From Phenylobacterium hankyongense (lineage in GTDB: Bacteria > Pseudomonadota > Alphaproteobacteria > Caulobacterales > Caulobacteraceae): 64,000 nt of DNA. The DNA lies in the NCBI RefSeq assembly GCF_003254505.1, contig NZ_QFYP01000001.1:1658001-1722000 (forward strand), in the 5' to 3' direction. A model generated the notes under the pieces. The model was not told the origin of the DNA. It ran no database searches and saw nothing but the letters and a program-made list of their open reading frames with translations. This document shows, piece by piece, positions 44,749-53,809 of the stretch; within the stretch, counting starts at the first letter, position 1, and each line of letters begins with the position of its first letter. The translations under genes were made by a program, and so were the position numbers.

Positions 44749-44773
44749 AACGATCACGCTGCAGCTTGGTTCC
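44749..44773 (-). promoter_or_regulatory. EcfG promoter for the entericidin gene
   Basis: Minus-strand GGAAC-N16-CGTT, an exact consensus. The -10 element ends about 36 bases before the entericidin start codon. Confidence 0.85.
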
Positions 44774-46472
44774 CGGCCGCAGGCGGAATGGCGTCGGCCG
44801 AGGGCGTCGGGAAGATCAGCCGCGCGGTGATCCCGCCGCTGGCGTTGCGGATCATCTCCACCTGGCCGCGCAGCTGGCGGGCGAAGGCGGTCATCAGGGT
44901 GCGCCCGACCCCGGAGGCGATCAGCGACTGTTCCGAAGCCTTGCCGTCGTCGCTGATCTCCAGCCGCGCCTGTTCGCCGTTGACGTGGAAGGTCACCGTC
45001 AGCACCCCGCCGCGGTCGGCGAAAGCGTGCTTCTGGGCGTTGGTGATCGCCTCCACCGCGAACAGGGCGAGCGGCGCCAGGCGATCGGGGTCGATCACCA
45101 GGGCGTCCACCGAGATCTCGGTGCGCACCGCTGGACCGTGCAGCATCTCGCCGGCCACCAGCTGGGCGGTCAGCTCCTCGAGGAACGGCCGCAAGTCGAC
45201 GCGTTTCAGGTCCGGCCCCTGGTAGAGGGCGCGGTAGATCAGCGCCAGCGCGGTGATCCGCTGGCGGGTGTCCGACATCGCCGCCCGCGCCGCCGGGTCG
45301 GAGAGCGCCCGCTGCTGCATGTTCAGCAGGCTGGAGATGACCTGCAGGTTGTTCTTCACCCGGTGGTGGATCTCGCGCATCAGCGCGTCCTTCTGGGCCA
45401 GCGAGTCCCGCAGGGAGGCGTCGCGCCCGACGATGGCGTCGGCCATGTCCTCCAGGGTCTCCGCCAGCTCGCGGATCTCCGGCGGCATCTGTTCGGCCTG
45501 CACCGGGCGCACGCTGAGCCGGCCCTTGGCGTAGAGCGCGGCGATGCGTTGCAGATAGGCGATCCAGCGGACCACCACCCGCTCGGCGACCACGGTCACG
45601 GCGGCCAACGCCAGAACGAAGGACAGCAGCGGGAAGAGGATGGCGGTCAGCGGGTTCAGCCGCGCCCACGACAAGAGCCCGGGCGAGGCGGCGGAGAGCA
45701 CCACATAGACGTCGTCGCCGATCACCGGGGCGGCGGAATAGACCCGGCGCTCGCCGCGCACGTCGCGGCCGTACCAGACCAGCGAGCCCTGGGCGTGGGT
45801 CCGGGCCCGCCAGCCCGCGGGAAGCGCGGGGAAGGCCTGGGGGTTGGTGGTGTTGATGAAGTGGCCCGCACGGTCGACCAGCGCCACCTCCGCCCGCTTC
45901 GGCAGCGAGGGGTCGTTGAGCGAAGGCTGCAGGCTGGCCAGCGGGATGACCGCCGAGAAGGCGCCGTCGAAGTTGCCGTCGGGGGCGGCGGCGCGCGCGG
46001 CCGCCAGGACCGCCGGCTCGTGGGCGTAGGTCGATCCGGCCTCGCGGGTGACCACCAGCGGGTCGCCGGCCGCCAGCCGCTGGAACCAGACGCGCTGGCG
46101 GCGGACGGGATCGGCGGGCACGTCGGCGGCGGCGCAGGCGACCCGGCCGCTGCGGTCGAAGCGGATCAGGTTGGCGTAGCCCGGCACGCGGTGGGTGACC
46201 TGCGCCAGCCGCTGCGCGCACTGGAAGCCGATGGAGCCCGGCGCCAGGGTCTGCAGCAGGATCTCCGCGCCTTCCAGCCGGGCGCGCGCGGCCGCAGCGC
46301 TGCGTTGCGCGCTGAAGCCCAGGTTCGCGCTCAGCGCCACCCCTTCGCGGTGGAAGGCGATGGCCGACTGCACGACGCCGAGCATCAGCACCGGCAGCAG
46401 CGCCGCCGCCAGGGCCGCGGTCAGCCGGACCCTGATCGTGCTCAATGAGCCCCAGAGGTGGCCGTTCATCAC
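44754..46472 (-). CDS. phyK: membrane sensor histidine kinase of the HisKA_2 family (PhyK-type)
   Basis: The protein has 572 residues. TM1 is at about 16-40, a periplasmic sensor domain of about 230 residues (two Cys, dCache-like in size), TM2 at about 273-296, then a HAMP-like helix and HisKA_2 with LMREIHHRVKNNLQVISSLLNMQQ (phospho-accepting His370). The ATPase domain has ALFAVEAITNAQKHAF and ISDDGK but the usual DxGxG is partly altered. PhyK kinases phosphorylate PhyR, which then releases EcfG from NepR. It starts 16 bases after ecfG and probably shares the nepR-ecfG transcript. The name phyK is given by family and position, not by proof. Confidence 0.85.
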   Translation of the reverse strand: MMNGHLWGSLSTIRVRLTAALAAALLPVLMLGVVQSAIAFHREGVALSANLGFSAQRSAAAARARLEGAEILLQTLAPGSIGFQCAQRLAQVTHRVPGYANLIRFDRSGRVACAAADVPADPVRRQRVWFQRLAAGDPLVVTREAGSTYAHEPAVLAAARAAAPDGNFDGAFSAVIPLASLQPSLNDPSLPKRAEVALVDRAGHFINTTNPQAFPALPAGWRARTHAQGSLVWYGRDVRGERRVYSAAPVIGDDVYVVLSAASPGLLSWARLNPLTAILFPLLSFVLALAAVTVVAERVVVRWIAYLQRIAALYAKGRLSVRPVQAEQMPPEIRELAETLEDMADAIVGRDASLRDSLAQKDALMREIHHRVKNNLQVISSLLNMQQRALSDPAARAAMSDTRQRITALALIYRALYQGPDLKRVDLRPFLEELTAQLVAGEMLHGPAVRTEISVDALVIDPDRLAPLALFAVEAITNAQKHAFADRGGVLTVTFHVNGEQARLEISDDGKASEQSLIASGVGRTLMTAFARQLRGQVEMIRNASGGITARLIFPTPSADAIPPAAGNQAAA

Positions 46473-46488
46473 AGGCCGGATTCCGTCC

Positions 46489-47091
46489 TCAACGGACGGT
46501 GCTTAGGCGCTCCGCGTCGGCCAGGATAGCCCGCATGGCGTCTCCAGCAGACGCGCCGTCGCGATCGTAATTCCCCTCGTCGAGGATGGCGTGCAGGGCG
46601 CGGCGCGCGCGGCTGACCCGGCTCTTCACCGTGCCGACGGCGCAGTTGCAGATCTCCGCGGCCTCCTCGTAGGCGAACCCGCCGGCGCCCACCAGGATCA
46701 GCGCTTCGCGCTGCTCGGCCGGCAGCATGGCCAGGCCCAGACGGAGTTCGTCCAGCGCCACCGGCGCTTCCGGATCGTCCACCGCCACCAGGGTCCGCTC
46801 GGCGGCTTCCTGGTCGAGCTGGCTCTGGCGCCACGAGCGGCGCTTCTCCGAATAGAACTGATTGCGCAGGATCATGAAGGTCCAGGCCTTCATGTTGGTG
46901 CCCATCTGGAAGCTGTTGCGGGCGTCCCACGCCTTCATCATCGCGTCCTGCGCCAGGTCGTCGGCCGCGGCCGGATCGCCGCACAGGGTGCGGGCGAACG
47001 CCCGCAGGTGCGGGATCAACTGGACGAGCTCACGCTTGAAGGCTTCGTCGTTCGCGCCGTCTCGCGGCGGCTTCGCGTCGGGCGGCGCCAT
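46489..47091 (-). CDS. ecfG: ECF sigma factor of the general stress response (EcfG)
   Basis: The protein has 200 residues. Sigma region 2 is FARTLCGDPAAADDLAQDAMMKAWDARNSFQMGTNMKAWTFMILRNQFYSEKRR, and region 4 is LGLAMLPAEQREALILVGAGGFAYEEAAEICNCAVGTVKSRVSRARRAL, both typical of ECF15 (EcfG). It directs RNA polymerase to GGAAC-N16/17-CGTT promoters, many of which are visible in this window. It is held inactive by NepR and freed by phosphorylated PhyR. Its start overlaps the nepR stop by one base (TGATG). An EcfG promoter in front of nepR shows positive autoregulation. Confidence 0.95.
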   Translation of the reverse strand: MAPPDAKPPRDGANDEAFKRELVQLIPHLRAFARTLCGDPAAADDLAQDAMMKAWDARNSFQMGTNMKAWTFMILRNQFYSEKRRSWRQSQLDQEAAERTLVAVDDPEAPVALDELRLGLAMLPAEQREALILVGAGGFAYEEAAEICNCAVGTVKSRVSRARRALHAILDEGNYDRDGASAGDAMRAILADAERLSTVR

Positions 47092-47279
47092 CAGCCCTTC
47101 TCCGACGAACGGCTGTCGGCTCGCCGAAGGATATCCAGGAACTCGTCGGGAACGTCCTCGTTCACCACCTCGTCGAACATCTGGCGCAGGCGCACGCCGA
47201 TGGCCTGCTGACGCAGGCGGGCCTCGTCCATCGCGGCGGAAGATTTCCGCCGGTCCTCTGAAGGTCTTTGTTCGATCAT
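47091..47279 (-). CDS. nepR: anti-sigma factor NepR
   Basis: The protein has 62 residues from the ATG at 47279. The core RQQAIGVRLRQMFDEVVNEDVPDEFLDILRRAD holds the two helices that clamp EcfG or the sigma-like domain of PhyR. A longer open frame to 47378 exists, but an EcfG promoter (47338-47362) lies inside that extension, and NepR proteins are about 60 residues, so the shorter form is right. It is translationally coupled to ecfG. Confidence 0.93.
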   Translation of the reverse strand: MIEQRPSEDRRKSSAAMDEARLRQQAIGVRLRQMFDEVVNEDVPDEFLDILRRADSRSSEKG

Positions 47280-47337
47280 GTCGCCGGCGCTCCGCTCTCG
47301 CGGCGGCCGCCCCCTCTTTGCATTCTCGTCAGCGGTC

Positions 47338-47362
47338 AACGCCCCGCTCCGCATGAGGTTCC
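47338..47362 (-). promoter_or_regulatory. EcfG promoter for nepR-ecfG-phyK
   Basis: Minus-strand GGAAC-N16-CGTT, exact. The -10 element ends about 58 bases before the nepR start. It gives EcfG autoregulation. Confidence 0.88.
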
Positions 47363-47401
47363 CAAAAGCTGCCGGCAAGATGCGGAAAACTTCTCAATTT
47401 G

Positions 47402-47426
47402 GGAACAAGTTCCCTCCGGTGACGTT
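47402..47426 (+). promoter_or_regulatory. EcfG promoter for phyR
   Basis: Plus-strand GGAAC-N16-CGTT, exact. The -10 element lies about 84 bases before the phyR TTG. It is divergent from the nepR promoter 40 bases away. Confidence 0.88.
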
Positions 47427-47510
47427 TTGGCACCATGATGGCGCCTTGTCGGGGGGATACGCCTCCCTGACGACGGCTGCCACGTATTGTTTCCATGGGA
47501 GGGGTCACCC

Positions 47511-48314
47511 TTGAGTCTTCTAGCCCGACTGGCGCCTCATCTTCCGTATGTGCGTCGTTACGCGCGCGCCCTGACTGGCGACCAGACGACCGGCGACCAT
47601 TACGTCCGGGTGGCCCTCGAAGCGCTGGCGGCCGGCGAGCGGGTGCTGGAGGCCAACCTCACCCCCCGCGTGGCGCTCTACCACGTGTTCCACGCCATCT
47701 GGTGCACCTCCGGCGCGCAGCTGGAAAGCCCGCAGGACGACGACAGCCTGGCCACCGACGACACCACGCGGCGGCTGATGCGCATCGCGCCGCGGTCGCG
47801 TCAGGCCTTCCTGCTGACCGCGCTTGAAGGGTTCACCCCCTCCGAGGCGGCGCAGATCCTCGGCACCGACTTCTCCGAGGTCGAGCAGCTGATCGCCGAA
47901 GCCCAGTCCGAGATCGACGCCGAACTGGCCACCGACGTGCTGATCATCGAGGACGAGCCGGTGATCGCCGCCGACATCGAGGCGCTGGTCAAGGAACTCG
48001 GCCATACGGTCGTCGACATCGCCGCCACCCGCACCGAGGCGGTGGACGCCGTCGCCCGCAAGACCCCCGGCCTGGTGCTGGCCGACATCCAGCTGGCCGA
48101 CGGCTCCTCCGGCATAGACGCGGTGAAGGACATCCTGGCGCGCTTCGACGTGCCGGTGATCTTCATCACCGCCTTCCCCGAGCGGCTGCTGACCGGCGAA
48201 CGGCCGGAGCCCACCTTCCTGATCACCAAGCCCTTCCAGCCGGAAACGGTGAAGGCGGCGATCGGCCAGGCGCTGTTCTTCCACCCGCGCAAGGCCAACA
48301 AGCAGGCCGCCTGA
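47511..48314 (+). CDS. phyR: anti-anti-sigma response regulator PhyR
   Basis: The protein has 267 residues from a TTG behind GGGAGGGGTCACCC; this start gives the conserved [25 protein letters not shown]. Residues 1-125 mimic sigma regions 2 and 4 ([28 protein letters not shown]), and residues 140-260 form a receiver with [18 protein letters not shown], phospho-accepting Asp192 in [16 protein letters not shown], and the switch ITAFPERLL plus Lys in ITKPFQP. When phosphorylated, the sigma-like part binds NepR and frees EcfG. It is divergent from nepR. Confidence 0.96.
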
Positions 48315-48317
48315 GCC

Positions 48318-48342
48318 GGAACGGCCGAGCTCCGCGTACGTT
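48318..48342 (+). promoter_or_regulatory. EcfG promoter for the first DUF1328 gene
   Basis: Plus-strand GGAAC-N16-CGTT, exact, four bases after the phyR stop codon. The expected transcription start (about 48349) lies directly at the foot of an 11-bp hairpin. Confidence 0.85.
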
Positions 48343-48350
48343 GAATTCGA

Positions 48351-48383
48351 AGGGCCCCGCAGGCTGCGGGGCCCTTTGTCTTT
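48351..48383 (+). terminator. hairpin between phyR and DUF1328 gene (terminator or 5' mRNA cap structure)
   Basis: AGGGCCCCGCA (48351-48361) pairs perfectly with TGCGGGGCCCT (48365-48375), followed by TTGTCTTT. It fits a phyR terminator, but it lies downstream of the 48318 promoter and would form the very 5' end of the DUF1328 transcript. Confidence 0.65.
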
Positions 48384-48396
48384 GAGGAGAGTGCGC

Positions 48397-48570
48397 ATGC
48401 TCGGTTGGGCGCTGGTGTTTGCGGTGCTGGCGATCGTCGCCGGCTTCCTGGGCTTCTTCAGCCTGGCGGGCCTGGCGGCGACCATCGCCAAGGTGCTGTT
48501 CGTGGTGTTCCTGGTGCTGCTGGTGGTGAACTTCATCGTCCGCGCGGTCCGCGGACAGTCGGTGGTCTAG
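48397..48570 (+). CDS. DUF1328 (YtjA-like) small membrane protein, copy 1
   Basis: The protein has 57 residues behind GAGGAGAGTGCGC. The sequence [53 protein letters not shown] has two membrane helices and is the standard DUF1328 protein. These small proteins are widespread stress-induced inner-membrane proteins of unknown function. An EcfG promoter precedes it. A second copy lies at 52649-52822. Confidence 0.9.
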
Positions 48571-48585
48571 AGCCCCGACACAGCG

Positions 48586-48609
48586 ACGGCGGCCCCGCGG
48601 GGCCGCCGT
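48586..48609. terminator. bidirectional terminator, 11-bp perfect stem
   Basis: ACGGCGGCCCC pairs with GGGGCCGCCGT around a GC dinucleotide, followed by TCTCT on the plus strand. It lies between the convergent DUF1328 gene and the 48635 gene. Confidence 0.7.
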
Positions 48610-48634
48610 TCTCTATTGCGCAGGTCCGGGCCGT

Positions 48635-48943
48635 CTATTGGCCGGGATTGCTGGGGTTGCCGCCGTTCTTCGGCGCCAGCGGCGCGCCTTGCTGGTAGTT
48701 CTGGCGGTCGGCGGCGCCGGGCGCAGGAGCATTGAACTGGGGCGCGCCCGCCCTGGGCCTTCCATTGTCGGAATTGGCGCGGCTGAAGTCGCCGGACTTC
48801 CAGGTGTAGGCGGCCAGGAAGCCGAGCACGACCAGCAGCAGGCTGAACAGCAGCACCCACAGGACGGGACGGCCGAGCCGGCCTTGCCGGGCGCGCGTGG
48901 CCCCCAGGGTCGGCCGGGCGGTGGTGCGCGTGGAAAGCGCCAT
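48635..48943 (-). CDS. single-pass membrane protein with Asn/Gln/Pro-rich tail
   Basis: The protein has 102 residues: a basic N terminus (TRTTARPTLGATRARQGRLGR), one membrane helix (about residues 27-46), then a polar tail rich in Asn, Gln, Pro and Gly. I do not recognise the family. It follows the next gene (48955-49164) after 11 bases on the same strand and should share its EcfG-dependent transcript. Confidence 0.65.
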   Translation of the reverse strand: MALSTRTTARPTLGATRARQGRLGRPVLWVLLFSLLLVVLGFLAAYTWKSGDFSRANSDNGRPRAGAPQFNAPAPGAADRQNYQQGAPLAPKNGGNPSNPGQ

Positions 48944-48954
48944 GCGAAGGCTCC

Positions 48955-49164
48955 TTACTCAGACGGGAAATAGCTGAACGGGCCGGTGGCGGGCGCCGCC
49001 GACACCGGTGCGTGCGGATGGGTCATGGATCCGATCAGGCCGCTGACCATGGCCATCGCCAGCACCGTGCAGACCACCATCAGCCGCCGGCGGCTGACCT
49101 GTTGGCGGTGGCTGGGCGTCTTCATCAACGTGAAACCGCCCCGCGGCGCATAGAAGCCACGCAT
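48955..49164 (-). CDS. small exported or membrane protein under EcfG control
   Basis: The protein has 69 residues behind GGGAGGGCCCGGTC. A basic stretch (HRQQVSRRRL) precedes one hydrophobic helix (about residues 29-46, VVCTVLAMAMVSGLIGS), followed by a short tail (HPHAPVSAAPATGPFSYFPSE). It is either a signal-anchored protein or a short secreted peptide. The EcfG promoter at 49214-49239 lies 50 bases upstream. No family is recognised. Confidence 0.65.
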   Translation of the reverse strand: MRGFYAPRGGFTLMKTPSHRQQVSRRRLMVVCTVLAMAMVSGLIGSMTHPHAPVSAAPATGPFSYFPSE

Positions 49165-49213
49165 GACCGGGCCCTCCCTGGCGGCGCGGGCCTGGAGCGC
49201 CCGCTTCGGAGGT

Positions 49214-49239
49214 AACGCGTCCGGCGCGACCGCCGTTCC
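49214..49239 (-). promoter_or_regulatory. EcfG promoter for the 49164/48943 gene pair
   Basis: Minus-strand GGAAC-N17-CGTT, exact. The -10 element ends about 50 bases before the start codon at 49164. Confidence 0.82.
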
Positions 49240-49392
49240 GCGAGGGCCGCGGAAAACGGTTAAGCTTTGAAATATCGTTGCCTTTTCAATGGTCTCGGGG
49301 TGAGGTGGCCGGGCCTGCGCGACCGGCGCCGGCGCTCCGCGGCGGGGCGGCGCCGGCGTGTGAAAAAAATTCTGGATTCTTCGCCGTCGGCC

Positions 49393-49417
49393 GGAACGGT
49401 TCCTGGGGGCGGGTGTT
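49393..49417 (+). promoter_or_regulatory. near-consensus EcfG promoter for a small RNA
   Basis: Plus-strand GGAAC-N16-TGTT: a perfect -35 and three of four -10 bases at the correct spacing. It has no open reading frame with a ribosome binding site downstream, but a structured segment ending in a terminator. Confidence 0.65.
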
Positions 49418-49421
49418 TAAG

Positions 49422-49542
49422 ACTTGCGGAGGCGGCGACGCCCCCCCCGACTTGAGACTGGCGACCATGCCAGTCTGCCGTCTCCGCACCCCTTTTCTCG
49501 ATGATGCACACTCAGGCGGACCTTCGGGTCCGCCCTTTCTTT
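49422..49542 (+). ncRNA. candidate GsrN-type stress small RNA
   Basis: About 120 nt run from the predicted transcription start to the end of a strong terminator. GCGGAGGCGG (49426-49435) pairs with CCGTCTCCGC (49478-49487) to close a domain. Inside it is a perfect 8-bp hairpin AGACTGGC/GCCAGTCT (49455-49476) and an unpaired stretch with eight consecutive C residues (49441-49448). The 3' end is GGCGGACC-TTCG-GGTCCGCC followed by CTTTCTTT. In Caulobacter the EcfG-dependent RNA GsrN has an exposed C-rich loop that binds mRNAs and an intrinsic terminator, and in relatives it lies near the GSR genes, as here. Identity with GsrN is inferred from structure and place, not from alignment. Confidence 0.7.
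49515..49542 (+). terminator. Rho-independent terminator of the small RNA
   Basis: An 8-bp perfect stem GGCGGACC/GGTCCGCC with a stable TTCG tetraloop is followed by CTTTCTTT. Confidence 0.85.
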
Positions 49543-49587
49543 GTGCGTCGAACAGGCTTTGTGCGTCGAACGGGCAGCCTCCGCGCC

Positions 49588-50046
49588 TCAGCGCGGCGCC
49601 AGGTGCAGCACCACGTCCACACGGCGGCGCAAGGGCGCGGCCTGGCCGCCGGCGGTGACCGAGCCCGCCTGTCCGCCCGCCGACACCCGGAACTCCGCCG
49701 GCGGCAGCCCGGCCCCCGCCAGGGCGGCGGTCACCGACTGGGCGCGGCGCTTGGAGAGCTCCAGGTTGGCCTCGGGCGCGCCGGCCGCGTCGGCCAGGCC
49801 CAACACCTCCACCCGGCGGACCGCACAGCCCTGGGCGCCGTTCGCCGCCGCGGCGATCACCGCGCGGCCCTCCGGCGTCACCTCCGCCGACTGCGGCTCG
49901 AAATAGATGTCGACGGTCTGGTCGGGACAGCGCGCCGGCGCCTTCACGATCCGCCCCCGGGCGTTCTCGATGGTCGTGCAGCCGGCCAACGCCAGCGCCA
50001 GCGCGGCGCCGGCGGCGACTGCGGCTGCGGTGCTCATGGTCTTCAT
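49588..50046 (-). CDS. OmpA-family peptidoglycan-binding lipoprotein
   Basis: The protein has 152 residues from the ATG at 50046 (GAGGGGGTACGACG upstream). The lipoprotein signal ends ALALAGC (Cys about residue 24). The OmpA-like domain shows VDIYFEPQSAEVTPEGRAVIAAAA, EVLGLADAAGAPEANLELSKRRAQSVTAAL and a final RRRVDVVL strand. The usual DxxG..Nxx..R pattern for binding diaminopimelate is only partly kept (GLADAAG). It would tether the envelope to peptidoglycan. A terminator separates it from the upstream gene; no EcfG promoter was found in front of it. Confidence 0.85.
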   Translation of the reverse strand: MKTMSTAAAVAAGAALALALAGCTTIENARGRIVKAPARCPDQTVDIYFEPQSAEVTPEGRAVIAAAANGAQGCAVRRVEVLGLADAAGAPEANLELSKRRAQSVTAALAGAGLPPAEFRVSAGGQAGSVTAGGQAAPLRRRVDVVLHLAPR

Positions 50047-50084
50047 CGTCGTACCCCCTCGGGTCCTTGCAAAGCCAACATGAC

Positions 50085-50112
50085 AAAGGGCGGCCGGAGC
50101 TTCCGACCGCCC
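50085..50112 (-). terminator. terminator after the glycine-zipper lipoprotein gene
   Basis: On the minus strand GGGCGGTCGG pairs with CCGGCCGCCC and is followed by TTTGTC, 28 bases after the stop codon of the 50140-50484 gene. Confidence 0.7.
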
Positions 50113-50139
50113 TCGCCAATCCACAGGCGTGTCCGCCGC

Positions 50140-50484
50140 CTAGGAGCGCGGGCTGCCGTCTTCCCAATAGTAACGGCCGCTGCCGGAGTCGTAGTAGTAA
50201 TACCGACCCGCACGCTCGTCGTAGTACTGGCGCCGGCTGGGCGTGCTGGCGCCGCAGCCGCCCTGGTCGTTGCAGCCCTTCACCGCGCCGGCCGCGCCGC
50301 CCACCAGAGCGCCGATGGCCGCGCCGGTGGCCGCATTGCCGGATCCGGTGTTGTTGCCGATCACCGCGCCGGCGACGGCGCCCAAGGCGGCTCCGCCCAG
50401 GGTGGTGTTGGTGGTGTGGGGGTCGTTCGCGCACGCGGTGAGCAACACGCTGGCCCCGGCGATCGCGATCCATGGTTTGAGCAT
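50140..50484 (-). CDS. glycine-zipper lipoprotein
   Basis: The protein has 114 residues behind AAGGAGAGCCC. The signal MLKPWIAIAGASVLLTAC gives a lipidated Cys18. Residues 30-70 form a glycine zipper (GGAALGAVAGAVIGNNTGSGNAATGAAIGALVGGAAGAV) that can insert in membranes. The C terminus is Tyr/Arg-rich (YYDERAGRYYYYDSGSGRYYWEDG). Similar OsmB/SlyB-like proteins are osmotic- and stress-induced outer-membrane lipoproteins. A perfect EcfG promoter lies 37 bases upstream. Confidence 0.85.
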   Translation of the reverse strand: MLKPWIAIAGASVLLTACANDPHTTNTTLGGAALGAVAGAVIGNNTGSGNAATGAAIGALVGGAAGAVKGCNDQGGCGASTPSRRQYYDERAGRYYYYDSGSGRYYWEDGSPRS

Positions 50485-50520
50485 TTGATGGGCTCTCCTT
50501 GTTTGTCCCCTGGCGGGCCT

Positions 50521-50545
50521 AACGCGGATCAAGCGTGACAGTTCC
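50521..50545 (-). promoter_or_regulatory. EcfG promoter for the glycine-zipper lipoprotein
   Basis: Minus-strand GGAAC-N16-CGTT, exact. It is back to back with the plus-strand promoter at 50549; the two -35 boxes are separated by only three bases. Confidence 0.88.
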
Positions 50546-50548
50546 GCC

Positions 50549-50573
50549 GGAACAACGCCGCCGCGCCGCCGTT
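50549..50573 (+). promoter_or_regulatory. EcfG promoter for the 50608 operon
   Basis: Plus-strand GGAAC-N16-CGTT, exact. The -10 element ends 35 bases before the ATG at 50608. Confidence 0.88.
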
Positions 50574-50607
50574 TGGAGGCTGACGAACGACGTTTGGGAG
50601 CTCCGAG

Positions 50608-50967
50608 ATGGCAGCTGCGCGCCTGCACGATAGCACGACCACCGTCGACACGGCGGGTCGGGACGAGATGAGGGCCGATCTGCGGGAGGCCTATGAACGC
50701 GGTCGCAGCGACGAGCGGGCCAGCCGCAAGCGGCATCCGGTCGCCATGACCTTCACCTTCATCGCCGCCGCCATCGGCGTGGTGCTGCTGGTGCTGGCGG
50801 CGATCAACGGCTCCTTCACCCGCGCCGGCGGCGTGGTCGACCAGAACCTCAACGTCGCCGCCAACCGCGCGGAGCCGGCGGTGCGCGACGCGGCCAGCAA
50901 CGCTGGACAGTCGCTGCGTGACGCCGGACAATCCGTGAAGACCAAGGCCGCCGACACCGCCGGCTAG
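50608..50967 (+). CDS. membrane protein with amphipathic repeat tail, EcfG-controlled
   Basis: The protein has 119 residues. A charged cytoplasmic helix (DEMRADLREAYERGRSDERASRKR) is followed by one membrane segment (about residues 48-68, FTFIAAAIGVVLLVLAAI). The tail has repeated DAASNAGQSLRDAGQSVKTKAAD units of 11 residues, as in LEA-like or YtxH-like stress proteins. Function unknown; desiccation or envelope protection is a reasonable guess. It is the first gene of a likely operon with a lipid kinase and a phosphoesterase. Confidence 0.75.
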   Translation: MAAARLHDSTTTVDTAGRDEMRADLREAYERGRSDERASRKRHPVAMTFTFIAAAIGVVLLVLAAINGSFTRAGGVVDQNLNVAANRAEPAVRDAASNAGQSLRDAGQSVKTKAADTAG

Positions 50968-50989
50968 GGAACCTCGAGGAGGGGGGGCG

Positions 50990-51856
50990 GTGACGGCAAT
51001 TCGTCGTGTGGAAGTGATCGCCAATGTGGCTTCGGGCAGCGTCGGCAAGGACGCGCCGCAGGAAGCCGCAAAGATATTCGCCGACGTCGGCCTGGACGCG
51101 AACATCCGCGCGCCGGCCACCGGGGACCTGTCCCGCGCCCTGCGCGCCGCGGTGGACGCCGCGCCAGATTTGCTGGTGGTGATCGCCGGCGACGGCACGG
51201 CCCGGGCGGCCGCGGAGATGTGCGGTCCTGACGGGCCAATCCTCGCGCCGCTGCCGGGCGGCACCATGAACATGCTGCCGCACGCCATCTACGGGTCGAG
51301 GTCCTGGCAGGACGCGCTCACCATCGCGCTGGCTCAGGGCTCGGAGCGGATGCTGGGCGGCGGCGAGGTCGAAGGCCGCCGGTTCCTGGTGGCCGCCATC
51401 CTCGGCTCGCCGGCGCTGTGGGCCCCGGCCCGCGAGGCCGCGCGCTTCGGCCAGAACAAGCTCGCCCTGATGCGCGCGCGGCGCGCCCTGCGGCGGGCCT
51501 TCTCCGGCCGGCTGCGCTACATGCTCGACGTCGGCCCGCGGGAAAAGGCCGAGGCGCTGGTGTTCCTGTGCCCGCTGACCTCCCGGGCGCTGAACGAGGA
51601 CGAGCAGACCCTGGAGGCCGCCGTGCTCGACGTGAAGGGCGCGGCCGACGCCTTCCGCCTGGGCCTGCACGCCCTGATCGGCGACTGGCGCGATGCGCCG
51701 GCGGTGGACAGCGAGCGCTGCAAGGTGGCGCGCATCTGGGCCGCGCACGGCATCCCCGCCATCCTCGACGGCGAGTCCGTGCGGCTGAAGTCGCTGGCAG
51801 AGGTCACCTACAAGCCGGAGCTGGTGCGGGTGCTGGCCATCCCAAAGGACCTCTGA
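50990..51856 (+). CDS. diacylglycerol/lipid kinase family protein
   Basis: The protein has 288 residues from a GTG with GGAGGGGGGGCG upstream. The catalytic domain shows EVIANVASGSVGKDAPQEAAKIF, the nucleotide motif LLVVIAGDGTARAAAEMC and the GGTMNMLPHAIYG segment typical of YegS/DgkB-like lipid kinases (LCB5/DAGK catalytic domain). The C-terminal beta domain follows. It would phosphorylate a lipid at the inner membrane; the substrate is unknown. It starts 22 bases after a GSR-controlled gene and 2 bases before a phosphoesterase gene. Confidence 0.88.
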   Translation: MTAIRRVEVIANVASGSVGKDAPQEAAKIFADVGLDANIRAPATGDLSRALRAAVDAAPDLLVVIAGDGTARAAAEMCGPDGPILAPLPGGTMNMLPHAIYGSRSWQDALTIALAQGSERMLGGGEVEGRRFLVAAILGSPALWAPAREAARFGQNKLALMRARRALRRAFSGRLRYMLDVGPREKAEALVFLCPLTSRALNEDEQTLEAAVLDVKGAADAFRLGLHALIGDWRDAPAVDSERCKVARIWAAHGIPAILDGESVRLKSLAEVTYKPELVRVLAIPKDL

Positions 51857-51858
51857 GC

Positions 51859-52641
51859 GTGGCCATTCGCCTGGCGCACCTGTCCGACATCCATTTCGGC
51901 GGCGAGAACGTCGCCGCGGTGGCCGGCGCGGCCGAGTACCTGAACGCTGGCGACTTCGACCTGATCGTGGTCTCCGGCGACCTCACCCGCTACGGCGAGA
52001 AGGCGGAGTTCGACGCCGCGGCCCGCTGGCTGGACAGCCTCAACGGCCCCAAGCTGGTGACGCCCGGCAATCACGACGCCCCCTACATCGCCTGGGCGGA
52101 GCGGATCTTCACCCCGTTCCGGCGCTTCGAGCACAGCATCGGCCCGGCCCGGACCCAGAGCCACCTGGGCGGCGGCTTCGCGGTGAAGGCGGTGAACACC
52201 GCGCGCGGCGCCCAGCCCCGGCTCAACTGGTCGAAGGGCCAGCTCGCCGCCGGCCAGGTGCGCGAGGCGGCGCAATGGTTCGAGACGGTCCCGGCCGAGT
52301 GCTTCCGCATCGTCACATGCCACCACCCGCTGATGGAGATGATCGGCGGGCCGATGACGGCGCGGGTCTGGGGCGGGGAGGCGGCAGCCGCGGCCTTCGC
52401 CGCCGCCAAGGTGGACCTGGTGCTCTCGGGCCACATCCACGCGCCCTTCGCCTGGCCCTACCCGTTCGACGACGGCAAGACCTATGCGGTGGGCGCCGGC
52501 ACCCTGTCGGTGCGCGAGCGCGGCGTCCCGCCGGGGTTCAACGTGGTCGACATAGAAGGGGCGGCGATTCGCATCGCCGCCCTCGTTTGGACCGGCTCGC
52601 ATTACGAGCCGTATCGCACCTGGTCTCTGGACCGGCGCTGA
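51859..52641 (+). CDS. calcineurin-like metallophosphoesterase
   Basis: The protein has 260 residues from a GTG at 51859. All metal-site motifs are present: LSDIHFGG, VVSGDLTRYG, TPGNHDAPY, VTCHHPLME and LSGHIHAPF. It belongs to the group of Icc/CpdA-like phosphodiesterases and phosphatases, though the substrate could equally be a phospholipid or UDP-lipid. Pairing with a lipid kinase in one GSR-controlled transcript suggests opposing or sequential action on a lipid phosphate. That link is inferred. Confidence 0.88.
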   Translation: MAIRLAHLSDIHFGGENVAAVAGAAEYLNAGDFDLIVVSGDLTRYGEKAEFDAAARWLDSLNGPKLVTPGNHDAPYIAWAERIFTPFRRFEHSIGPARTQSHLGGGFAVKAVNTARGAQPRLNWSKGQLAAGQVREAAQWFETVPAECFRIVTCHHPLMEMIGGPMTARVWGGEAAAAAFAAAKVDLVLSGHIHAPFAWPYPFDDGKTYAVGAGTLSVRERGVPPGFNVVDIEGAAIRIAALVWTGSHYEPYRTWSLDRR

Positions 52642-52648
52642 ACCGCGT

Positions 52649-52822
52649 CTAGGGCACCCCGCGTCCGCGTACGAAATGCATGACGATGGACACCAGGAAC
52701 AGCACCAGGAAGACGTAGAACAGGATCTTGGCGACACCCATCGCGGCGCCCGCGATCGTCGTGAAACCAAGCACTGCCGCGATCAACGCGACCACCAGGA
52801 AGGTCAGGGCCCAGCCGAGCAT
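52649..52822 (-). CDS. DUF1328 (YtjA-like) small membrane protein, copy 2
   Basis: The protein has 57 residues behind [66 protein letters not shown] is a clear DUF1328 member with two helices. It is distinct from copy 1 at about half of the positions, so the two are diverged paralogues. The EcfG promoter at 52890-52914 lies 67 bases upstream. Confidence 0.9.
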
Positions 52823-52889
52823 TGGCGTTCTCCATGCGCGCCGAAGGCGCTTCTCACGTTGCGCGGGTCGCTCGCCCGCTCGCCAATTC

Positions 52890-52914
52890 AACGTCATTCA
52901 ACCGGGGCTGTTCC
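52890..52914 (-). promoter_or_regulatory. EcfG promoter for the second DUF1328 gene
   Basis: Minus-strand GGAAC-N16-CGTT, exact, in the gap between the 52944 gene and the DUF1328 gene. Confidence 0.85.
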
Positions 52915-52943
52915 CAGCGCTCCTTTCGAAGTGATGGGATGGC

Positions 52944-53354
52944 TCAGCGGCGCCGGGTCTTCTCGGGGACCGGCGCTCGCGTGGCGCGGCTGGCGATGGC
53001 CGCGCTGACCACGGCGGAGAGGATCTTCGGATTGCGCACCAGCACCACCGCGGCGGCGACGGCCGCGCCGGTGGCGATCACCGGCTTCTCCCGCGCCAGC
53101 TCGATGAGGCGGGTGGTCATGTTCTGGTCGTCGGCCTTGATCGGCTTCGGCTTGGCCTTGCGCAGCACCACCAGGGCCAGGGTCAGCGCCAGCAGGGCCG
53201 CCAGCACGGCGATCACCGCCGCGGCGCCGGCCGGGCCGAGATAATAACGGGCGAGCGCATAGAGCGCGAAGGCCGCTGCGACGACGCAGACGGCGGCGGC
53301 CGCCGCCATCGCAGCGATGGCGGCGACAAGGCCTAGCGCCTTCTTGAAGATCAA
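52944..53354 (-). CDS. two-helix membrane protein, holin/YqjE-like
   Basis: The protein has 136 residues. Two membrane helices (about residues 8-34 and 42-63) are followed by a Lys-rich segment and another hydrophobic stretch (VIATGAAVAAAVVLV) and a basic end. Gene order after a DUF883-like gene resembles the yqjD-yqjE-yqjK stress operon of enterobacteria, where YqjE is a holin-like membrane protein. The match is by layout. It overlaps the upstream gene by four bases. Confidence 0.65.
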   Translation of the reverse strand: MIFKKALGLVAAIAAMAAAAAVCVVAAAFALYALARYYLGPAGAAAVIAVLAALLALTLALVVLRKAKPKPIKADDQNMTTRLIELAREKPVIATGAAVAAAVVLVRNPKILSAVVSAAIASRATRAPVPEKTRRR

Positions 53355-53671
53355 CGGCGGCCGGAGGAGAGCAGCAGGCCGATGAGCACGCCGACGCCCA
53401 GCGCCGCGCCGGTGGCGGCCAGCGGCCGTTCCTTCACGCGCTCGGTGACGTATTGGCCGGCCTGTTCAAGTTGCTGGCCGGCGTTGTCGGCATAGGCGCG
53501 CGACTGCGCGCGCAGCTGCTCGAGGCCGTCCTGGACCACCTGCTCGATGCGAGTGCGGGCCTCGGCGAAGGTGCGTTGAGCCTCGGCGCTCAGGCGGCTG
53601 GCGCTCTCGGTCGCATTGCCGGACGCGGCCTTCATCTCGTCGGCGGCATAGTCGGCGGCGTTCGCGGGCAT
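53351..53671 (-). CDS. DUF883 (ElaB/YqjD)-like tail-anchored protein
   Basis: The protein has 106 residues: an amphipathic N-terminal helix region (SASRLSAEAQRTFAEARTRIEQVVQDGLEQLRAQSRAYADNAGQQLEQAGQYV), then VKERPLAATGAALGVGVLIGLLLSSGRR, the C-terminal membrane anchor with the ERPLAA/GxGxLIGLLL signature of DUF883. ElaB and YqjD proteins bind inactive ribosomes to the membrane in stationary phase. Two EcfG promoters lie upstream, which fits a stress role. Confidence 0.85.
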   Translation of the reverse strand: MPANAADYAADEMKAASGNATESASRLSAEAQRTFAEARTRIEQVVQDGLEQLRAQSRAYADNAGQQLEQAGQYVTERVKERPLAATGAALGVGVLIGLLLSSGRR

Positions 53672-53718
53672 GGGGAGATCTCCAAAGGGATTTGAGCCCC
53701 GGCGGGGGGCGCAGCCTG

Positions 53719-53744
53719 AACGTCGAGCAGCATAGGCCGGTTCC
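53719..53744 (-). promoter_or_regulatory. EcfG promoter (proximal) for the DUF883 gene pair
   Basis: Minus-strand GGAAC-N17-CGTT, exact. The -10 element ends 48 bases before the start codon at 53671. Confidence 0.85.
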
Positions 53745-53783
53745 GCCTTCGGCGCAAAAGCGGGTCGTCCCCCCGGCGCCCGA

Positions 53784-53809
53784 AACGCTGTGGGAAACGC
53801 ACGGGTTCC
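53784..53809 (-). promoter_or_regulatory. EcfG promoter (distal) for the DUF883 gene pair
   Basis: Minus-strand GGAAC-N17-CGTT, exact, 65 bases upstream of the proximal one. It lies in the leader region of the divergent HWE kinase gene. Confidence 0.65.

Follow-up and report, generated by a model that had tools for sequence, protein, structure and literature searches.

The closest described system is GsrN of Caulobacter crescentus, a small RNA induced in Caulobacter and related bacteria by an EcfG-type stress sigma factor (PMC5869019). Its ends have been mapped to C53, T54 and T64; the 5' loop holds six C residues in tandem, four of which take part in the 7-nucleotide pairing with katG (PMC5869019). 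The C. crescentus gene is described as unusual in being distal from sigT-nepR-phyR (PMC5869019). The same report proposes GsrN-like RNAs in Rhizobiaceae, Brucella and Bradyrhizobium, each with an EcfG-type site, a position near GSR genes and a predicted exposed C-rich 5' loop; as presented there, no sequence homology is claimed for them (PMC5869019).

We analyzed a 64-kb stretch of the Phenylobacterium hankyongense genome, called the window below, in which a sequence-only reading had proposed a GsrN homologue within a 423-base intergenic gap. Recounting gave the same gap, 423 bases from the end of a small ORF at 49164 to the start of an OmpA-like gene at 49588. In an Rfam scan, family RF01529 (Caulobacter sRNA CC3552) matches positions 49428-49535 of the plus strand with 88.8 bits (E 6e-13; gathering cut-off 50 bits). 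The match spans model positions 1-106 of 106, is the sole Rfam family reported in the window, and occurs as a single copy in the whole 3.84-Mb genome. This full-length covariance-model match bears out the proposed homology, as do the fit to the published numbering, loop and target, the conserved promoter and the proximity of ecfG-nepR-phyR. The sRNA at 49426-49542 is very probably the GsrN orthologue (RF01529) of Phenylobacterium, made by EcfG and acting on mRNAs through its C-rich loop. By homology the RNA is real; its expression and EcfG dependence would be those known from Caulobacter. The presence of GsrN in a Phenylobacterium genome was expected: GsrN, including its occurrence in this genus, was already published in 2018, and the kind of RNA is therefore not new. 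The elements of the gene are as follows.

49393-49397, plus strand: -35 element GGAAC, invariant in 39/39 genus loci
49414-49417, plus strand: -10 element TGTT (consensus CGTT) after a 16-nt spacer, in register in all genus loci
49426-49542, plus strand: GsrN-type sRNA gene (Rfam, 88.8 bits), with a predicted +1 at 49426
49426-49436, plus strand: closing stem, 5' strand, 11 bp with 49477-49487; 100% of cells paired in 29 sequences
49437-49454, plus strand: exposed C-rich loop GACGCCCCCCCCGACTTG, unpaired in the fold and the best-conserved stretch
49455-49476, plus strand: inner hairpin of a perfect 8 bp, 49455-49462 with 49469-49476
49477-49487, plus strand: closing stem, 3' strand, paired with 49426-49436
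49515-49542, plus strand: intrinsic terminator, GGCGGACC-TTCG-GGTCCGCC then CTTTCTTT, from fold and covariation

RF01529 and GsrN were equated through G130, the genome of a Caulobacter relative recognized as such by its features. Numbered from its predicted +1, the homologue in this genome has C at base 53, T at bases 54 and 64, and a run of six C. Its loop is the exact complement of the published sites GUCGGGG, UCAAGUCGGGG, AAGUCGGGGGGCG and GUCGGGGGGCGUC. The katG leader of G130 contains GTCGGGG, the heptamer of the published katG pairing, and the RF01529 match of this genome lies 84 kb from nepR, in agreement with the distal gsrN of C. crescentus. From these numbered bases, the six-C loop, the target-site complements, the katG leader and the distal location, it follows that RF01529 is GsrN. 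The step from CC3552 to R0081 is drawn from such sequence features rather than from a stated synonym, and fixes the Rfam name 'CC3552' as GsrN. The predicted +1 at 49426 was placed by aligning the sRNA with its G130 homologue, whose numbering follows that of published GsrN.

The structure read earlier from the letters recurs almost entirely in our fold: the perfect 8-bp inner hairpin, the run of eight unpaired C (49441-49448, within the loop) and the TTCG-loop terminator with its T-rich tail are all found at the positions listed, and the closing stem is present with 11 bp instead of the 10 first counted. The segment folds with z = -4.84, and 0/200 dinucleotide shuffles were as stable. The terminator consists of an 8-bp stem with a TTCG loop (49515-49534) and a CTTTCTTT tail (49535-49542); this stem and T-tail provide the predicted 3' end of an RNA of the GsrN type (about 106 nt). 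In a structural alignment of 29 RF01529 homologues, paired cells amount to 100% in the closing stem, 99% in the inner hairpin and 93% in the terminator. Both sides changed in 13 of 28 pairs, namely three in the closing stem, 5/8 in the inner hairpin and 5/9 in the terminator; this exceeds 500/500 shuffles and every slid control, and on each of the five covariation measures 0/500 shuffles reach the observed value. Loss of the C-run and stems in related genomes had been named as grounds for rejecting the homology, and both are kept, with these 13 pairs covarying. Across the aligned homologues, GCGACGCCCCCC-GAC hardly varies. The C-run measures 7-9 in 38/39 genus loci and 14 in the remaining one, and 6-8 in loci outside the genus. 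By analogy, the loop GACGCCCCCCCCGACTTG is expected to be the base-pairing seed.

RF01529 is present in 165 of 249 Caulobacteraceae genomes and is also matched in the Caulobacter vibrioides control; a sample of 200 genomes drawn at the order level gave no match beyond this family. A 28-base core recurs exactly in 12 GTDB records, eleven from Phenylobacterium, including P. deserti and P. kunshanense, and one from an 'Alphaproteobacteria bacterium'. Four genomes from another genus of the family (G151, G155, G159 and G204; genus g3) carry two RF01529 matches each, possibly a second copy. Two repeats flank the gene in the window: two tandem copies of CTTTGTGCGTCGAACRGG (17/18 identical; 49539-49574) lie directly 3' of the terminator, the first overlapping its T-tail, and a spacer-less inverted repeat, whose GC-rich arms of 17 nt are 82% complementary, lies just 5' of the promoter (49323-49356).

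Genes for ecfG, nepR, phyR and a sensor kinase are found 1-5 kb upstream of the sRNA:

44754-46472, minus strand: HWE/HisKA_2 sensor kinase gene (Pfam)
46489-47091, minus strand: ecfG sigma factor gene (Pfam Sigma70_r2/r4_2, PhyR_sigma2)
47091-47378, minus strand: nepR anti-sigma factor gene (Pfam NepR PF18557, E 4e-15)
47448-47456, plus strand: phyR-leader motif GTCGGGGGG, a complement of the sRNA loop and a weak candidate target
47511-48314, plus strand: phyR response regulator gene (Pfam PhyR domains)

The start of phyR is probably the TTG at 47511, which is backed by the Shine-Dalgarno sequence GGGAGGGG and a conserved TTGAGTCTTCT; the longest ORF begins at 47487. The HWE/HisKA_2 kinase is likely the GSR kinase, its function being assigned from its domains. 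Proximity to the GSR locus is typical of the GsrN family and is not required. In 37 of 38 fetched congeners and in the window (38/39 loci), ecfG, nepR and phyR lie within 3 kb of the sRNA. The sole congener with its GSR core elsewhere is L036 (G074), where the best nepR match is about 700 kb off on the same contig. Among 56 genus genomes, 42 have both NepR and the sRNA, 3 have NepR only, none has the sRNA only and 11 have neither; the sRNA is thus absent from all 11 congeners without NepR (Fisher p 2e-9 over the 56 genomes, shared ancestry ignored). Strict GGAAC-N16/17-CGTT sites number 11 in the window versus 0.6 expected, and all lie within 44.7-53.8 kb. This interval of about 9 kb (44749-53809) forms a GSR promoter island; several of its 11 strict EcfG-type sites lie just 5' of neighboring genes, among them nepR, phyR and one for a small membrane protein. 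A 69-aa membrane-type ORF at 48955-49164, divergent from the sRNA, has its own strict EcfG site (49214-49239, minus strand).

The known target katG (PF00141) has no gene in this genome, which encodes a monofunctional catalase. Looking for G-rich pairing sites in the katG leader, as the sequence-only reading had proposed, is therefore inapplicable here, and, katG being the one proven target, GsrN must act in this species on other messages. Activation of katG is accordingly missing from the picture; katG is a target in one species and does not define the family. Of 60 sampled genomes of the genus, 20 lack katG. Twenty-nine genomes with gsrN are also in the katG sample, 10 of them without katG, and in all 10 the C-run is retained at 8 or 9 residues; katG is therefore not the cause of loop conservation. 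In an energy test of loop pairing, katG leaders of 29 congeners gave 3 cases at p <= 0.05. The homologue of the proven target, the G130 katG leader, gave p 0.44 in the same test, which is thus powerless and says nothing either way. Phenylobacterium species that lack katG offer a natural setting in which to seek conserved GsrN targets.

Our best target lead is GTCGGGGGG in the phyR leader, and it is a weak one; no candidate target was found convincing. The motif shows no enrichment genome-wide (25 sites versus 28 for the reversed control), and duplex energies reach p <= 0.05 in 5/38 phyR leaders, barely above chance. The katG-target heptamer GTCGGGG, on the other hand, occurs in 7/38 phyR leaders versus 0.5 expected, a level reached in 0/400 shuffles. 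It was not found on the antisense strand of the 38 leaders; among other nearby leaders most lack it and the count never exceeds 2. A G-rich element is present in the phyR leader of many congeners, and in the window a strong hairpin (47434-47510, z -2.8) encloses the G-run. Recurrence of GTCGGGG may be explained by a conserved leader hairpin, and the genomes are also related. Although GsrN of C. crescentus is reported to have brought down nepR-sigT mRNA on co-purification, no feedback of GsrN on sigma-T was seen there. The phyR-leader heptamers may be taken as a weak lead for such a feedback.

The promoter had been described from the letters as a near-consensus EcfG promoter, GGAAC-N16-TGTT. 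This description holds, with a -10 element that is off consensus and a register kept in 39/39 genus loci: each has GGAAC, 16 or 17 bases, NGTT and a constant distance to the RNA. GGAAC is also present in all 30 other-family loci tallied, and the predicted +1 lies about nine bases 3' of the -10 element. Our analysis suggests that the gsrN promoter of the genus is held under full strength, the level of GsrN being tuned down. We may further hypothesize that Phenylobacterium GsrN has been rewired as a whole, combining a weakened EcfG promoter with independence from katG and with pairing to the phyR leader, so as to feed back on the sigma activator; we consider this extended scheme unlikely.

The same element might instead reflect a switch of the gsrN promoter to another sigma factor, which is possible and less likely than a weakened EcfG promoter. 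In its full form, with the promoter moved to an EcfG paralogue or other ECF factor and the general stress response no longer the main role of GsrN in the genus, this explanation is very improbable. It would account for the first -10 base, which is T, A or G in 37/39 genus gsrN promoters and C in 2/39; among the remaining EcfG-like sites of these loci it is C in 305/344 (Fisher 4e-27), and among gsrN promoters of other genera in 26/29 (Fisher 3e-13). The base preceding the -10 element, G in 35/39 genus loci, points the same way, as does the history of the first base: on the phyR tree it changed at least 12 times and is C at only two tips, so that the off-consensus -10 is not one inherited change. 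However, GGAAC, GTT and the spacing are fully retained, and the gene tracks the presence of NepR and the GSR locus. Furthermore, TGTT and GGTT both serve as -10 boxes for the Sphingopyxis EcfG, and the change from CGTT to TGTT merely lowers in vitro transcription by this factor (PMC7083833).

With transcription by EcfG as the preferred reading, a working scheme can be proposed after the Caulobacter model. PhyR would remove the anti-sigma factor NepR, allowing EcfG to transcribe gsrN from 49426, and transcription would stop near 49540, at the intrinsic terminator. In its folded 5' domain the RNA would expose the C-rich loop, which would pair with G-rich segments in several mRNAs and alter their translation or stability. 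A cut in the closing stem, placed near 49482/49483 by comparison with C53/T54 in Caulobacter, would probably yield a stable 5' form like the GsrN form of about 53 nt. The genome contains an Hfq gene, and Hfq may protect full-length GsrN.

Intergenic location, and the fact that the sRNA is known here from its sequence, would also fit a cis element, that is, the leader or terminator of a neighboring mRNA and not a free sRNA. This is extremely improbable: both genes flanking the gap are encoded on the other strand, which leaves no mRNA of the sRNA's strand beginning or ending there; the element comes with a promoter and a terminator of its own; and its Caulobacter counterpart is described as a proven free RNA (PMC5869019). 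A chance GC-rich hairpin segment beside a chance GGAAC motif, for which the GC-rich genome and the genome-wide count of the strict CGTT motif (56 sites versus 31 for the reversed control) might speak, is refuted by conservation and excluded by the folding z-score, the Rfam E-value, the promoter and the covarying stems.

Homologues in the same genus, of the same family and GSR-proximal, appear in Tien et al. 2018 (PMC5869019, Fig. 9); the text of that report presents no target, promoter-variant or katG analysis for Phenylobacterium. The interest left lies in the absence of katG, the off-consensus promoter and the tentative phyR lead. Compared with C. crescentus GsrN (CCNA_R0081; RF01529 'CC3552'; PMC5869019), the Phenylobacterium RNA is alike in sequence, closing stem, inner hairpin and terminator, in the C-rich loop followed by GACTTGA, and in the GGAAC -35 element, N16 spacer, GSR link and Hfq in the genome. 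It differs in having eight C where the Caulobacter RNA has six, a longer inner hairpin loop and a TGTT instead of a CGTT -10 element. The gene sits beside ecfG-nepR-phyR, whereas Caulobacter gsrN is about 84 kb away, and katG, the proven target in Caulobacter, is missing from the Phenylobacterium genome.
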